DNA of 30,712 nucleotides from a virus: positions 1-30,712 of the IMG/VR virus record IMGVR_UViG_3300027852_000134. One strand, 5' to 3'. Below the pieces are notes generated by a model. It worked only from the letters and a program-made list of their open reading frames with translations, made no database searches and was not told where the DNA came from. Position 1 is the first letter of the stretch; every line of letters starts with the position of its first letter. Made by a program: the position numbers and the translations under genes. Below, piece after piece: positions 8,266 through 13,187 of this stretch.

Positions 8266-8500
8266 GGATAGCCACCAACACCTGTCTGGGTGGGAAGTTG
8301 GAGCATGAGAACTTGGAGTCCTCTGGTCCACACAGGTCTTCCTCACCTGTGGTGTTGGTCTCCACCAGTTCTTGCATTTGGGTGGGACTTGCTGGTTGTT
8401 CTGCAACTATAGGTTTAGGTTCTACCACTTCTGGAGGTGGACTTTCAAAACAACCCACCAGTAAGAACAGAACCAGGACTAGGCTAAGTTTCTTGATCAC
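8237..8500 (-). CDS. Lysis lipoprotein, o-spanin or u-spanin candidate
   Basis: The 87 aa product begins with a textbook lipoprotein signal (MIKK, hydrophobic core, lipobox LVGC at 14-17), so it would be lipidated at Cys17 and sorted to the outer membrane. A proline-rich stretch follows (ESPPPEVVEPKP), as in Rz1-type o-spanins. The C-terminus is hydrophobic (VLVAILTALLNVL, 74-86), which recalls unimolecular spanins that span both membranes. It lies directly after the endolysin, overlapping it by 17 bases, the usual spanin position. The start is GTG 8500 with a GGGGG-type ribosome site. Confidence 0.6.
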   Translation of the reverse strand: MIKKLSLVLVLFLLVGCFESPPPEVVEPKPIVAEQPASPTQMQELVETNTTGEEDLCGPEDSKFSCSNFPPRQVLVAILTALLNVLK

Positions 8501-9086
8501 TAACAGCCCCCTTCCCCAGAGGTAATTGCTTAATGGCTGGTAATGGAGCAGACTTGGGCCACCTGTAGCTCAGTACCCTGGATCTTGGTTTGGCAGCAAC
8601 AGTAACAGCATTACCTTGATTACCCCCCAAGACCAACAGTTGTCCAGTGCTGGTCTCCCCCACCACAAATCCTACATGTCCTTTCCAACCTTTCTTCTTC
8701 TCTCTCCAGAATACAACTATGCATCCCACCGCTGGGCCATGGAGCTTCACTCCCCACTTGTTGTATGATCTGGCATTGGCCTTCCTGGTACTGACTATCC
8801 CAACCTCTTCAAGCACCCCACCTACAAATCCTGCACACCAGGGAGTTTCATCATCCGTGAATGGTGCTCTTATCAGTCTCCACCACTCCAGTATTTTAGG
8901 GTTGTGCCTGGAGCCTCTCCATTCTTTCAGCCCCAGATAGGTTTTTGCCTTGTCAAACCATGGGGTGTTACTACTAACTGGATCAAGAAGTTTTCTCAAT
9001 CTCTTAATTTCTTTCAGAGCAAGTGCCATCACCTTTGCATCAGTTGCACTCAATCTTGTTTCAAGTTGTTTCACAATATCAGTCAT
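8484..9086 (-). CDS. Endolysin, TIGR02594/CHAP-like peptidoglycan hydrolase
   Basis: ATG 9086 is chosen because it overlaps the upstream stop (TAATG), giving 200 aa. Residues 1-35 form a charged helix (TDAKVMALALKEIKRLRKLL). Residues about 42-178 are a papain-like amidase/peptidase domain of the TIGR02594 type, with nucleophile Cys84 in DETPWCAGFVGG, His137 in KGHVGFVVG, and LGGNQGNAV supplying the third polar residue (N156 or N159). No signal peptide is seen, so access to the wall would need a holin. It would cleave cell-wall peptide bonds at lysis. Lysis-gene neighbours on both sides support the call. Confidence 0.8.
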   Translation of the reverse strand: MTDIVKQLETRLSATDAKVMALALKEIKRLRKLLDPVSSNTPWFDKAKTYLGLKEWRGSRHNPKILEWWRLIRAPFTDDETPWCAGFVGGVLEEVGIVSTRKANARSYNKWGVKLHGPAVGCIVVFWREKKKGWKGHVGFVVGETSTGQLLVLGGNQGNAVTVAAKPRSRVLSYRWPKSAPLPAIKQLPLGKGAVSDQET

Positions 9087-9190
9087 TATTTCAACCACGC
9101 ATGTAGTAATGCTCCAAGAAAGGCTATGACTGTTGCAGCAGCAGGGAGCAAGATCACTGTCAGAAAGTCATGCATTGCACTACCCACCAT
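9086..9190 (-). CDS. Candidate mini-holin, 34 aa
   Basis: A short frame between the coiled-coil membrane gene and the endolysin. Its ATG (9188-9190) overlaps the upstream gene's end, and its TAA (9086-9088) overlaps the endolysin ATG. The product is MVGSAMHDF followed by one hydrophobic helix (LTVILLPAAATVIAFLGALL) and a short HAWLK end. A small one-helix membrane protein directly before the endolysin is what a class III or pinholin-type holin would look like. An inner ATG six codons in could give a second, shorter start as in dual-start holins. No homology is claimed. Confidence 0.5.
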   Translation of the reverse strand: MVGSAMHDFLTVILLPAAATVIAFLGALLHAWLK

Positions 9191-9485
9191 TCTTTTCACA
9201 ACATTTCTCCACTTCATCACATTTAGTTTGTAGAGTATTCAGTCTGTACTCCAGACTTCTTACCGCTGGCATGGCTCTGGATTCTTTTCCTAATTCAAAT
9301 CTTATATCATGGATATGATTCTCCAGAGTATGAATTTGATTCTCCAAAGCCTTCCCTTCAGTCCCAGTGAATGGATCAGGTCTGGGATCTGCTCCCATGT
9401 TCAGGCCAAGACTTGCCCCACCACCACTCAACATAGCGGTCAGCAGGAATATGGCCATATCTCTTGGTTTTTCTATTGCAGGCAT
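9180..9485 (-). CDS. Membrane-anchored coiled-coil protein, i-spanin-like
   Basis: The ATG at 9485 overlaps the upstream stop (TAATG), giving 101 aa. A TTG 21 bases upstream is less likely. Residues about 10-30 form an N-terminal hydrophobic anchor (MAIFLLTAMLSGGGASLGL). From 45 on there is a heptad-rich helix (ALENQIHTLENHIHDIRFEL, SLEYRLNTLQTKCDEVEK) ending with cysteines C89, C95 and C96. One N-terminal anchor plus a periplasmic coiled coil is the topology of Rz-type i-spanins, and the lipoprotein gene two genes on could be its partner. A T7 gp17.5-like holin is the alternative. Confidence 0.5.
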   Translation of the reverse strand: MPAIEKPRDMAIFLLTAMLSGGGASLGLNMGADPRPDPFTGTEGKALENQIHTLENHIHDIRFELGKESRAMPAVRSLEYRLNTLQTKCDEVEKCCEKNGG

Positions 9486-10261
9486 TAGCTTATTAGTATT
9501 TCCCAATCAATTGAAAAGTAGTTGGAGCCATTGTTGTAGAGGGTGAAGGAACCATTGTCAGTGCTGATTACCTTGGTTTGAGAACCATCAATGGTAATAC
9601 CCTCAAAAGAACCATCTGATATTGTTGCCGCATACTCTGTGAGGAGTAAGTTGTCTACTCCTACAGCAATACTGGTCTCTGCATTAATGGAGGCTGCATA
9701 CTCTGTGAGGAGTAAGTTGTCAACCCCAACAGAGATGTTGGTTCCTGCACTGATGGTTGCAGCATACTCAGTCAGGATAAGATTATCAACATCTGCTGAG
9801 ATACTTGTCTCTGCGTTGACACTGGCTGCATATTCAGTGAGTATCAGATTGTCAACACCAGCATTAATATTGACATTATCTCCAGCCAGAATTGTGGCTG
9901 GGTATTCTGTGAGTATTAAATTATCAACACCTACACTTACAGATGTCTCGGCATTAACTGTTGCCGAATACTCTGTCAATAGTAGGTTATCTACTCCAGC
10001 AGAGATACTAGTCTCTGCATTAACAGTGGCAGCATACTCTGTGAGTATTAGATTATCTACACCCGCAGAAACTTCTACATCAGTGGTGGTTTCCACTGTT
10101 GCTGCATATTCAGTTAGTATTAGATTGTCAACACCTACACTAACTTCAGTGGCACCACCAGAAACAATGAACTCTACATAGCCAACACCAGGAATCAGAT
10201 ATGTGCCGGAGCTAGCAGGCTCCTCTACATAGCCAATACCGGGGATGAGAAATGTCGCCAC
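9485..10261 (-). CDS. Repeat-containing virion or receptor-binding protein, 258 aa
   Basis: Two copies of a [FY]LIPG[IV]GYVE motif open the protein, a module seen at the start of fibre-type genes in marine phages. The body is eight tandem units of 22-24 residues, each with the core VDNL[IL]LTEY[ASP]A[TS][IV] joined by short NAETSIS-like linkers. A C-terminal stretch (TKVISTDNGSFTLYNNGSNYFS) looks like a capping domain. Such regular short repeats usually build an extended beta-structure. The gene follows the large fibre-like gene directly (TAA then GTG 10261) and precedes lysis genes, so a tail spike or fibre component is likely. Exact role unknown. Confidence 0.55.
   Translation of the reverse strand: MATFLIPGIGYVEEPASSGTYLIPGVGYVEFIVSGGATEVSVGVDNLILTEYAATVETTTDVEVSAGVDNLILTEYAATVNAETSISAGVDNLLLTEYSATVNAETSVSVGVDNLILTEYPATILAGDNVNINAGVDNLILTEYAASVNAETSISADVDNLILTEYAATISAGTNISVGVDNLLLTEYAASINAETSIAVGVDNLLLTEYAATISDGSFEGITIDGSQTKVISTDNGSFTLYNNGSNYFSIDWEILIS
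9631..10148 (-). repeat. Eight tandem 66-72 bp coding repeats
   Basis: Read on the + strand, the landmark CATAYTC-type sequence recurs at 9631, 9697, 9763, 9829, 9901, 9967, 10033 and 10105. That is six steps near 66 bases and two steps or linkers of 72, all multiples of three. Copies differ mostly at third codon positions, so the repeat is old and kept by selection on the protein. Unequal crossing-over could change the copy number. Confidence 0.85.
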
Positions 10262-11650
10262 TTAACTTACTCCAACATCGTGACTCACAAACAGGTCATC
10301 TGCGCCTATGCTGGCCTTGCCGAAACAGATGAATACCTCGGCCCAACCTTCACCACCAGTACCGGCAGTGGTCAGTGTTATTTCTTCAGCCACGCCCAGA
10401 GTTTTACCACCCTTAGTCCATGTTGCAGATGATGCGGTATTGTAAGTTCCAACAGCAGCGGCCAAGGAATTTGCAAGCCCAGTTGTTTCAATTGAAAACC
10501 CTGGATCACCGCTGTTTGGTATATGCGCCTCTATCCATGCCTCATCATTCTCAAACCTGGAGCCTGTACCAGCTCCCAGGCTGTCATGTGCCAACTGAAC
10601 AACAATGTCCTTAGCCGATGAAAAATCAGCACGGACTTTACCTAGTGAAAATCGGAATGGCGCTTGTGAGGCTGCCTTGGCAGATGTTAAGACATTGAGA
10701 GAGAAATCCTGCCCTTCTACGGTATCGGCAGCATTATCATAGACTGATCCATCAGTGAGGAACTGACCGAATATATCTCGCCTTGCCCTTACTGATCTAT
10801 CGTTACCATCGTCACAGTTTTCTAGTGTTATGATTGACCCCGCAGATGTTGGCTCTTCACCCAGCGCCCAACTTGCAGGCATTTTACAATCATATAAGTT
10901 TATTAAATTAACATCCTCTGAAGCTGCCGCCGTAGCATCCATAATAGATGCACCTGATGCTAGATTTGTTAAATCAACACCATAACAGTTTAATGTCCCA
11001 CCACCATTACCATCTAGCGCACATAAAAAACCTGGCCCGGTAGTGTTGTTATATATAGAGCCGCCGTACACATTTATAAGCACCCCAAGTCTTATCCTGA
11101 CGATAGAGCTTGAAGCATGCTCTGACGCTCTTAAGACTGATTCACGTATATTTATCGTTACTCCGTCTACAGAAGCCTCTGTATAATAGGACGAACTAGC
11201 TGTACCATAGATGGCTGCACCTAATTGACAGTCCTTCAGATTATATACGGCACCAGAAACGGTAAAACGCATATTATCCTCGGCCTCCAACGTCACCCCT
11301 TCAATCCTAACATTCCCACCTGCCACGCCACCCACTTGATAATTGCCGGAAGTATTATGCTCATCGGCCCCAGCCTTATATGTATCTGCGCTTGTATCGT
11401 CAACACTAATAATTATTACGCCACTAGGTACAGTTATTAGCTCATGCGCCCCAAATGCAGCGGCATGAACATCAGAACAACAGATAAAATCCCCGGCAAC
11501 AGGAGGAGAGGCATCAGCAAGGGCTGTGCCTATATCCACATATACATCAGCAGCCTCTAGCCCCGCAGAGCCAAACGCACCACTCTCCTGGGTTTTACTG
11601 CCGCCAGAAGTTCTAGTACCCAGCCCTGACTTAACATAGAAATAACCCAT
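10262..11650 (-). CDS. Large fibre-like protein, probable beta-helix
   Basis: The 462 aa product is rich in Gly, Ala, Ser, Asn and Thr, with short regular strands in the centre. Segments such as NVRIEGVTLEAEDNMRF, YNLKDCQLGAA, TINIRESVLRASE, LINVYGGSIYNNTT and TLNCYGVDLTNL suggest stacked turns of a right-handed beta-helix. The last 150 residues (SSAKDIVVQLAHDS and later) look like a separate C-terminal domain. A tail fibre, spike or other adhesin is the best reading, at the usual place after the internal virion genes. The start overlaps the upstream stop (TGATG). CpG is visibly more frequent here than in much of the window, suggesting exchange of the host-range locus. Confidence 0.55.
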   Translation of the reverse strand: MGYFYVKSGLGTRTSGGSKTQESGAFGSAGLEAADVYVDIGTALADASPPVAGDFICCSDVHAAAFGAHELITVPSGVIIISVDDTSADTYKAGADEHNTSGNYQVGGVAGGNVRIEGVTLEAEDNMRFTVSGAVYNLKDCQLGAAIYGTASSSYYTEASVDGVTINIRESVLRASEHASSSIVRIRLGVLINVYGGSIYNNTTGPGFLCALDGNGGGTLNCYGVDLTNLASGASIMDATAAASEDVNLINLYDCKMPASWALGEEPTSAGSIITLENCDDGNDRSVRARRDIFGQFLTDGSVYDNAADTVEGQDFSLNVLTSAKAASQAPFRFSLGKVRADFSSAKDIVVQLAHDSLGAGTGSRFENDEAWIEAHIPNSGDPGFSIETTGLANSLAAAVGTYNTASSATWTKGGKTLGVAEEITLTTAGTGGEGWAEVFICFGKASIGADDLFVSHDVGVS

Positions 11651-12183
11651 CAGTCGTCCTCAATTTCTTCCTGCTCAGCATCAAACAAAGCCATTTGTGC
11701 TTTAACCGTACCCACATCGTCCAGAATGGCATTGATCCTGCGATTCATCTTCAACACTTGCTGGGTGGTGATGTCCAACCAGTTAGCCAGTTGGTTGGCA
11801 TTGTAGTTAGCCCTCAGATAATCAATCAACGGTTCCAGAGCCACTACTATGCGCGGGTCTCTCTCCCTCATCATGTAGCGGATTAGCTTCTTTGCAATGC
11901 GCTTGGATGTAGACCACTTAGGGTTAAGAGTGATGGTTAGTGAATCCTCTGACTCCACCCGCTCTATTATTTGGTTATCTTCATCGTTAGCAGCACCAGT
12001 TAATAGCTGTTGTGCTTTCTTATTTGCATGGGCAGACGCATCAAAACCTGCATCAGCAACAATGGGACCGATTTCATGAGTAGATTGCACATTGTCGTTA
12101 TCTTCCAACACAATCGAATAGTGCAGTCTGCGATCAGAACCGCCGCTATCATGGGTAATAGTTACGCTAATTATTGAAGCCAT
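11650..12183 (-). CDS. Hypothetical virion-region protein, 177 aa
   Basis: The start has GAGGTT upstream (AAGAGGTTATACC then ATG). The first 55 residues are beta-like (SVTITHDSGGSDRRLHYSIV). The middle is charged and helical (WSTSKRIAKKLIRYMMRERD). The end is a likely coiled coil with an acidic tail (MNRRINAILDDVGTVKAQM then DAEQEEIEDD). It may assist assembly of the next protein, a fibre-like product, as small chaperone or adaptor proteins often do. No family is recognised. Confidence 0.4.
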   Translation of the reverse strand: MASIISVTITHDSGGSDRRLHYSIVLEDNDNVQSTHEIGPIVADAGFDASAHANKKAQQLLTGAANDEDNQIIERVESEDSLTITLNPKWSTSKRIAKKLIRYMMRERDPRIVVALEPLIDYLRANYNANQLANWLDITTQQVLKMNRRINAILDDVGTVKAQMALFDAEQEEIEDD

Positions 12184-12194
12184 GGTATAACCTC

Positions 12195-12632
12195 TTAAAC
12201 TATTGTGAAAATACCAGATGCATTCCAGGTAATGGTTAGATCACCTGCCGACATGTCAACTGGACCACCAAGGTCTACAAAAGCCAGTGCATCTTTGCCT
12301 GCATCGGTGTAGTTGAAAATAATGCCCCAATAGGCATCAACATCATTGGAAGCATCCTGTGCCCAAGTTGGATTGGTTGCTGAATCGAAAGTCATGGTCC
12401 CTGCTGCTTCAGTTACTAGAGCAGACAGTGCCCCAAGACTTGTGCCATCTGTTACATATGTTCCAGCAGCACCCACCTGAGTGAAATCACCAATTACTGG
12501 AGTTGCTGTACCTGCTGCTGGGGTTGCTGTATCATCACAAATCGCAAGATGGAATAGATCGGTACTGGCCCAATCCCCATCCAACATCTTTGCCTTTGCC
12601 TCTTCAAATACTACTATATCACCCTGTGCCAT
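12195..12632 (-). CDS. Putative virion protein, 145 aa
   Basis: The start ATG follows an AAGAGGT ribosome site. The pattern is familiar in phage particle genes: an N-terminal segment with DLFHLAICDDT, a central DSATNPTWAQDASNDVDAYW, a predicted strand GIIFNYTDAGKDALAFVDL and a closing LTITWNASGIFTI. Proteins of this general plan occur among tail or decoration genes of many phages, but I cannot name the family. It lies between the collagen-like protein and the fibre-side genes, so a distal-tail or fibre-linked location is likely. Confidence 0.45.
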   Translation of the reverse strand: MAQGDIVVFEEAKAKMLDGDWASTDLFHLAICDDTATPAAGTATPVIGDFTQVGAAGTYVTDGTSLGALSALVTEAAGTMTFDSATNPTWAQDASNDVDAYWGIIFNYTDAGKDALAFVDLGGPVDMSAGDLTITWNASGIFTIV

Positions 12633-12644
12633 TTTAACTACCTC

Positions 12645-13187
12645 TTAAGTTAGAACTTCAACTGTTATATTAAATGCTCCGGCGGTGCCGGATTCATCTT
12701 TCACTGCAATCACTTGTGTGGATCTAATTCCGGTAGGAAGATAGATTGTGGTATCTGCCCCCGTATTCACTCCGAATATGTTGAGACCATCTATTAATCC
12801 TCCCCCTCTTACAGTGTAGGTAGTGTCCAACACTTGTTCATAATGTATGGATGTAGACAATCCCCCAGCTACTACCGAAGTCTGTCCATCCTTACCTTTG
12901 GTTGAAGCCACGAATGCTTCATCTTCTTTTAGTACTTCTGCTACTTCTGTTGCTGTAGGGGGGTGTCCAGATATGCCATTGAGACCATCCTTACCCTTTG
13001 GTCCTGCCACACCCCTTGGCCCATTGAGACCATCCTTGCCATCTCTTCCAGGAGCACCATCCCTCCCATCTTTTCCATCTCTACCATTCAGACCATCCTT
13101 ACCAGCAATACCAATAAACTTTTCAATTGGTATGACTGAATCCAGTTTAGTTATCTTGGATATCTTTTTTCTCTTAACCACTGACAT
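12645..13187 (-). CDS. Collagen-like virion protein, 180 aa
   Basis: Residues about 29-75 consist of Gly-X-Y triplets (GKDGLNGRDGKDGRDG, APGRDGKDGLNG, PRGVAGPKGKDGLNG), the sequence of a triple helix, rich in GKDG and GRDG units that stabilise bacterial and phage collagens. The basic N-terminus (VKRKKISKITK) probably docks on the particle. The C-terminal 80 residues (TVRGGGLIDGLNIFGV, TTIYLPTGIRSTQVIAVKD) look like a globular trimeric tip. A tail-fibre or spike trimer is likely. The ATG comes just after the upstream stop, with a GAGGTGG inside the previous gene's end. Confidence 0.7.
   Translation of the reverse strand: MSVVKRKKISKITKLDSVIPIEKFIGIAGKDGLNGRDGKDGRDGAPGRDGKDGLNGPRGVAGPKGKDGLNGISGHPPTATEVAEVLKEDEAFVASTKGKDGQTSVVAGGLSTSIHYEQVLDTTYTVRGGGLIDGLNIFGVNTGADTTIYLPTGIRSTQVIAVKDESGTAGAFNITVEVLT

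Follow-up and report, generated by a model that had tools for sequence, protein, structure and literature searches.

Gene content of the locus

The window, by which we mean the whole 30,712-base stretch of virus record analyzed here, carries on its minus strand, in order, terminase, portal, capsid, tail, and internal virion protein genes, a block of six genes, and lysis genes (some names assigned by gene order). The terminase shares 62% identity with its counterpart in the podovirus record MW202697 and 61% with the one in the Zobellviridae phage MEP401; no relative of its internal virion protein was found in viral contigs. In ICBM1, also of the Zobellviridae, an endolysin gene directly follows the internal virion genes, and in MEP401 a gene for a minor structural protein comes next, then a short one annotated as hypothetical. 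Given these gene orders, the six-gene block is an accessory insertion relative to both phages.

Along the minus strand, the block encodes a collagen-like protein with G-x-y repeats (12645–13187), a 145-aa phrog_644-type protein assigned by PHROG match (12195–12632), a 177-aa protein ("MID"; 11650–12183) with relatives at the same position in loci L010, L027, and L123, a 462-aa beta-helix-like protein (10262–11650), a 258-aa repeat protein (9485–10261), and a 108-aa protein (9180–9506). The beta-helix-like label was inferred from the look of the sequence, without a computed fold. The repeat gene, known from the ORF list and its translation and delimited exactly in the preliminary description, starts with GTG, abuts the stop of the preceding gene, and has a Shine–Dalgarno-like GGAG (10270–10273, minus strand, read from the sequence) 8 nt ahead of its start. 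Both of its putative partner genes lie upstream—the beta-helix-like gene directly adjoining, the phrog_644-type gene third in order. Collagen-like repeats also adjoin phrog_644 in L086 and L118.

Just downstream of the block are genes for a CHAP endolysin (8484–9098) and an Rz-like spanin. The CHAP protein has its best PHROG match in phrog_1259 (E 9e-40), which groups baseplate hub and tail lysozyme proteins and not endolysins. The 108-aa gene overlaps the end of the repeat gene; by eye, its product has a hydrophobic stretch and a coiled-coil look, and beside the endolysin and spanin it is possibly a holin candidate.

A repeat protein of two modules

The repeat protein comprises two separable modules, a 22-residue repeat (hereafter the LTE repeat) and a double head. 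Eight repeat units of 22 or 24 residues occupy residues 38–217 (9611–10150, minus strand), with VDNL-x-LTEY-x-A recurring at residues 44, 68, 90, 112, 136, 158, 180, and 202. The seven steps between these copies measure 24, 22, 22, 24, 22, 22, and 22 residues; the eight copies counted in the preliminary description are thus confirmed, but its six steps of 66 bp and two of 72 bp must be corrected to five and two. The head spans residues 4–31 (10169–10252, minus strand) and consists of two LIPG-x-GYVE segments, which could be aligned with 15 other heads; LIPG[IV]GYVE recurs at residues 5 and 22, a step of 17 residues, as had been described. The C-terminal 41 residues (9488–9610, minus strand) have no recognized relative and are modeled by AF2 at low confidence. 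A 196-aa frame antisense to the repeats (9591–10181, plus strand) was considered a by-product of the repetition.

The repeats far exceed chance. A two-unit DNA pattern matched the window five times, each time within the repeat gene, and gave no match in 100 shuffled windows; among 2000 shuffled versions of the protein, none had more than one stretch with at least six of the nine fixed motif residues. Between units, the codon differs in 190 of 329 same-residue codon pairs (58%), from which it follows that the units are old and have been kept alike by selection at the protein level. Tandem Repeats Finder recovered only two blocks from the DNA, with a 66-base period and 80–81% match; together with the codon differences, this indicates that no recent expansion of units has occurred in this gene.

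The LTE repeat as a phage family

Matches to the two-unit DNA pattern comprised 24 stretches in viral contigs and one short frame in genome contigs; the latter (L046), the sole match in bacterial genomes, is an 18-aa frame considered to be chance. The proteins carry between 4 and 41 units by a loose count, several of them being cut by contig ends. Among the 379 units collected from 50 distinct proteins, steps of 22 residues predominate (210), followed by 24 (32), 23 (12), and 25 (5). Positions 9, 11, 12, 13, 16, and 18 (L-x-L-T-E..A-x-V) were fixed or restricted by the search expression; beyond it, 90% of the units have V or I at position 2 and 69% have A at position 4. The window repeat shows the same 22-residue pattern, with its V-x-A, L-x-L-T, and A-x-V positions.

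The distance from the V-x-A motif to the L-x-L that follows it is preserved in 246 of 256 steps of 22 residues and in 36 of 36 steps of 24 residues, as against 18% of random positions; for the rarer steps of 23 and 25 residues, the place is kept in 3 of 14 and 4 of 5. Because it is kept in all 36 steps of 24 residues, the two extra residues of these steps lie in one loop, and this fixed insertion gap is a structural constraint that is independent of AlphaFold.

The family was not found as such in the curated libraries that were searched. The LTE repeat had no Pfam match and no common PHROG, and its profile (A7), searched to E 10, matched none of the PDB chains; the window's repeat protein (P0001) gave a best PDB hit at E 0.37, which was rejected. 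Neither the repeat protein nor a 1199-aa relative from L009 matched the named phage collection by direct search. Hits in Pfam, NCBIfam, and PHROGs to PP-binding, fn3_6, DUF3199, ribonuclease Z, and the like were considered chance, mostly lacking an individually significant stretch. When 44 three-unit windows were compared with PHROGs, seven families were each hit by one window (best phrog_18467, E 8.6e-7), and one of these seven may hold such repeats. A search of open-licence literature for a phage-fiber 22-residue or 22-amino-acid repeat or rope protein found no paper.

In 3 of the 20 proteins scanned, the repeats are fused to Laminin_G_3 (L100, L117) or DUF2341 (L061, L100), which suggests, as far as domain composition goes, that in some phages the repeat protein carries its own cargo in the same chain. 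These fusions also bear on a reading of the window's product as a non-virion protein, lysis-linked or secreted, for example, in keeping with the CHAP endolysin and Rz-like spanin genes just downstream. That reading appears highly improbable, since beyond the fusions the same modules occur among capsid, head–tail connector, and tail genes in other contigs (partly judged by eye).

Fold of the repeat

From the single sequence, AF2 drew a three-strand solenoid with pLDDT of 72–91 over residues 61–200; the mean over the whole model was 66, and the five models ranged from 47.7 to 66.3. Foldseek found no match for this model at E <= 0.001 in PDB or BFVD. VIA, which re-ranks Foldseek candidates only, aligned the model to solenoids such as HxuA (4i84; Z 17.8, 174 residues). 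Across the 379 units, the small or hydrophobic residues that are conserved make up three short stretches of alternating pattern (several of these positions having been fixed by the search, V-x-A not).

It is possible, if somewhat unlikely, that the repeats form a rigid beta-solenoid shaft that stands by itself, with phrog_644 only anchoring it, capping one end or helping it to fold, and with no bead per repeat. The three predicted strands per unit and the VIA alignment to HxuA are consistent with such a shaft, and the conserved positions and the place of the insertion would suit a three-sided rung. Against this, one study describes AF2 as drawing confident solenoids for meaningless repeats (PMC11795689), the mean pLDDT is modest at 66, and Foldseek returned nothing significant. 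Given this bias as described there, the AF2 solenoid cannot decide between a repeat that folds alone and one that folds on a partner. The stacked beta-structure proposed in the preliminary description therefore retains the support of the three alternating stretches and the single insertion gap (36 of 36), but that of the AF2 solenoid is weakened. The number of units found beside phrog_644, from about 4 (L027) to about 30 (L001), is neutral with respect to a cap.

Phrog_644 as the constant neighbor of the repeat

The window's phrog_644-type protein matches phrog_644 at E 1.2e-6, a family to which PHROGs assigns neither a function nor a link to repeat proteins; we found no mention of it in open-licence literature. 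The protein shares 57–78% identity with 9 of its 11 relatives in repeat-bearing contigs, and 48% and 32% with the other two. A scan with it used the best 80 of 126 relatives, of which 67 loci, in contigs not picked for repeats, remained after removal of 13 that share a contig with the first set (near-duplicates such as L082/L083 and L091/L092 were kept). With a profile built from 18 first-set windows, LTE repeats were detected in 51 of these 67; an earlier LTE model had contained windows from tested loci, and this is the count from the test repeated without them. The repeats lie on the phrog_644 strand in all 51 cases, downstream in 46 and upstream in 5. All 16 misses have less than 4 kb downstream of phrog_644, and all 39 loci with at least 4 kb carry the repeat, the 4-kb cut having been set within the analysis script. 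In control loci chosen by terminase (best 80 of 134 relatives), LTE repeats or phrog_644 occurred in 0 of 80, a limited control since these loci are related to one another. By the strict LTxY expression, repeats were found in 22 of the best 80 phrog_644 loci.

A period scan that made no use of the motif placed a tandem-repeat gene within four genes of phrog_644 in 52 of 75 loci, with a period of 22, 44, or 46 in 48 of the 52; four of these matches (L073, L086, L118, L125) look unlike LTE repeats. Among the more distant genes of these loci the corresponding figure is 11 of 395, and among genes in head-only loci it is 10 of 210; these comparisons count genes where the test counts loci, and the 10 of 210 includes head proteins with other repeats. 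Same or identical loci (L016/L023/L089, L014/L024/L063/L064, and others) were kept in the locus counts. In MW202475, a phrog_644-type gene (E 4e-35) is likewise followed, about 1.4 kb away, by an ORF recognized by the LTE model (E 7e-4).

Seen from the repeat, phrog_644 lies within the locus in 18 of 27 first-set LTE loci. Eight of the nine others start at a contig or locus end; the exception is L015, with no phrog_644 in its 11.6-kb contig. The PHROG model itself detected phrog_644 in 7 of 20 records, one of the seven being among the 10 head-only records, and missed L010, L014, and L024, in which our own model finds it. The pairing of phrog_644 and LTE-repeat genes is thus near-obligate, and the window conforms to it, with a phrog_644-type gene within about 5 kb on the same strand.

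The double head and the beta-helix-like protein

A second pairing concerns the head. With a profile seeded by the window protein plus four relatives, a member of the beta-helix-like family was found beside the double head in every one of the 15 stretches that the head pattern had picked out, and in five of them this member is cut by the locus end; because L035/L036 and L038/L039 carry the same genes, these represent at most 13 distinct cases. In the window, the tandem head likewise stands beside a beta-helix-like gene of about 450 aa. Four more records with a beta-helix-like gene came from searches that made no use of the head pattern: the repeat led to L010 and L019, phrog_644 to L123, and the beta-helix-like protein to L219. 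All four have, by eye, a tandem head or a head variant. L219 was the only new contig from the scan with the beta-helix-like protein, the other five matches being already known, and a YQIPGWGY double head follows the gene. In L123, the head is inside an 849-aa repeat protein, and two genes separate it from the beta-helix-like gene. The preliminary description placed the repeat protein next to a fiber gene; the neighbor is beta-helix-like and accompanies the double head in all 15 stretches, its label being taken from the look of the sequence.

For the window's beta-helix-like protein, Pfam and the PDB gave no match and PHROGs none that was significant, and a direct search of viral contigs returned nothing. 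It and two relatives likewise had no match in the named phage collection.

The bodies behind the head vary: LTE repeats in the window, L027, L010, and L019, other tandem repeats elsewhere, Laminin_G_3 in L033, and a DUF1833 minor tail domain in L044. The head is therefore a separate module. In L032, L034, L036, L040, L043, L045, and L219, the double-head proteins contain tandem repeats of a different type, such as ATGSYALTGQDAGLL in L219 (by eye), so that different repeat families seem to act as spacers behind the same head. In L044 (231–812), the fusion is to the DUF1833 domain (phrog_396, E 1e-26), which would, judged by the domain match, put the head at the tail tip in that phage.

The two pairings can be seen to come apart in a pair of related loci. 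Between L010 and L016, phrog_644 is 93.8% identical and the repeat regions are 80% identical over 241 residues, with 8 units in the former and 12–13 in the latter. In L016 other genes, not convincingly similar (best E 0.24 and 2e-4), stand in place of the 172-aa and beta-helix genes, and the head has been replaced as well. As read from this swap, the head goes with the beta-helix-like protein and the repeats go with phrog_644.

The same comparison bears on the suggestion in the preliminary description that the repeat protein is a length-variable module, changed by recombination between repeats, that masks the fiber or tunes its reach. Unit number does vary among related phages, as the copy-number comparison it had called for shows (8 against 12–13), and proteins with 4 to about 41 units are found; in the window's gene, however, the units are old (58% codon difference, two DNA blocks of 80–81%), with no recent expansion. 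A role as a masking or reach-tuning module whose length changes by recombination seems quite improbable. Tethering of the beta-helix-like protein would match the gene pairings better.

Predicted fold of phrog_644 and possible site on the virion

An AF2 model of phrog_644 built from 71 sequences reached a pLDDT of 94.7 and a pTM of 0.90. Foldseek returned nothing significant for it (best E 1.7). In the VIA re-ranking of the Foldseek candidates, the top row was 9f4a_A0, from the baseplate cup and tail tube/sheath interface of a Klebsiella phage (Z 11.2). Next of interest is 8jou_a, from the entry titled "Fiber I and fiber-tail-adaptor of phage GP4," which the predicted fold matches over 123 of 136 residues at an rmsd of 3.5 and a Z of 7.8, a level that the tool calls usual without a clear match. 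Further rows comprised two neck or connector chains (Z 5.6), phiKZ gp139 (4.7), tail fibers of phage 7-7-1 (4.0), and two phi812 baseplate chains (3.9). Each of the top eight among the 13 rows is a phage protein, and seven belong to entries on necks, connectors, baseplates, or fibers.

A different indication came from the phrog_644 profile (A2), whose one PDB match up to E 10 was a 160-aa minor capsid protein (7kmx_a, E 0.0063, chain residues 27–107). We take 7KMX to be the decoration protein gp53 of phage XM1. A published account describes gp53 as a 160-residue decoration protein that sits as trimers on the capsid (PMC10457771). On this analogy, phrog_644 would be a capsid decoration protein and the repeat protein a filament of the head surface hung on it. 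The profile match to 7KMX is weak, and the phrog_644/repeat pair does follow the major head protein (coat) gene in L001 and the coat gene in MW202475; but no decoration-protein chain, 7KMX included, is among the fold matches, which come from neck, baseplate, and fiber entries instead, and the window has this pair between its internal virion genes and its lysis genes, a long way from the gene for the capsid. We consider a decoration role unlikely.

Gene neighborhoods elsewhere are mixed. When 132 genes located upstream of phrog_644 were compared with PHROGs, no family had more than five members, and most were tail fiber and collagen-like. In L032 and L038, the head/beta-helix pair adjoins head–tail connector genes or lies one gene from them. 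From gene positions and the predicted fold, a site at the neck or head–tail junction would be favored over the capsid surface.

The adaptor of a known accessory fiber also recurs in these loci. Gp77 (PF23148), which following Pfam we take to be the fiber–tail adaptor of GP4, scored above the Pfam cut-off near an LTE or head gene in L009, L013, L022, L045, and L043, and below it in L036. A search of 39 records gave seven matches at E <= 0.1, four of them above the cut-off. The 30.7-kb window record had none, a record that may be a fragment, in a search that also missed the L043 gene. These counts are limited to searches independent of a profile (A1) made from six Gp77-like genes, which contains its own six genes; that profile matches 8jou_D at E 6.7e-6. 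Two very long LTE proteins, of 1199 aa (L009:1–3600) and 895 aa (L022:1–2688), with 41 and 32 units by the loose count and both cut at the contig end, have a Gp77-like adaptor gene slightly downstream.

A putative accessory fiber of bead and rope

A repeat family with a near-obligate partner is probably part of an accessory virion fiber. In the specific form that we consider somewhat better supported than not, judging from gene pairings and models, the repeat protein would be the rope, or tether, of such a fiber on the outside of the virion, its head docking the beta-helix-like protein and its repeats docking phrog_644. The N-terminal double LIPG–GY head would plug into the beta-helix-like protein encoded directly upstream, which may serve as an exposed spike; the eight LTE repeats, with three short beta segments each, would give a regular shaft or rope rich in beta structure, with copies of the small phrog_644 protein either holding it or threaded along it. 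The number of repeats would then set both the amount of bound phrog_644 and the length of the fiber. We infer that these proteins are present in the virion and that paired proteins bind each other, with perhaps one bead per repeat or group of repeats.

The fiber I of Ralstonia phage GP4 (PDB 8JOU) reportedly consists of beads joined by an elongated rope protein. The proposed fiber may resemble it in that the predicted phrog_644 fold aligns to 8jou_a and in that Gp77 occurs near an LTE or head gene in five records; unlike it, neither the LTE repeat nor phrog_644 has a sequence match to any 8JOU chain, and the window has no Gp77 match. Because the ropes showed no relation in sequence and the window yielded no adaptor, we do not claim membership of a GP4 type, and the likeness is architectural. 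A second parallel, drawn from description only, is the neck fiber of Anabaena phage A-1(L), an accessory fiber of several proteins resembling a chain of beads: it is described as having a gp82 trimer anchored to the neck by a ring of 15 subunits, followed farther out by gp81 and gp80, which are flexible (PMC10966104).

More tentatively, and with rather more doubt than confidence, the loci may represent a widespread and undescribed surface-fiber platform, in which an obligate phrog_644 bead and LTE rope would carry exchangeable cargo on the free end—lectin-like domains fused to it (Laminin_G_3 or DUF2341), or a doubled LIPG–GY plug capturing a beta-helix spike encoded by its own gene—and repeats would count beads and length. 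If bead and rope are borne out, the repeat number would be a direct genetic ruler of fiber length, and the exchangeable head would show how unrelated phages can trade surface spikes. For phrog_644, a family of unknown function in at least 126 viral contigs, the pairing supplies a constant partner and a proposed position in an accessory fiber that can be tested.

In L040 (315–3212), the second gene after that of the double-head protein, in a phage structural region, encodes a 965-aa product that by eye looks like a glycosyltransferase.
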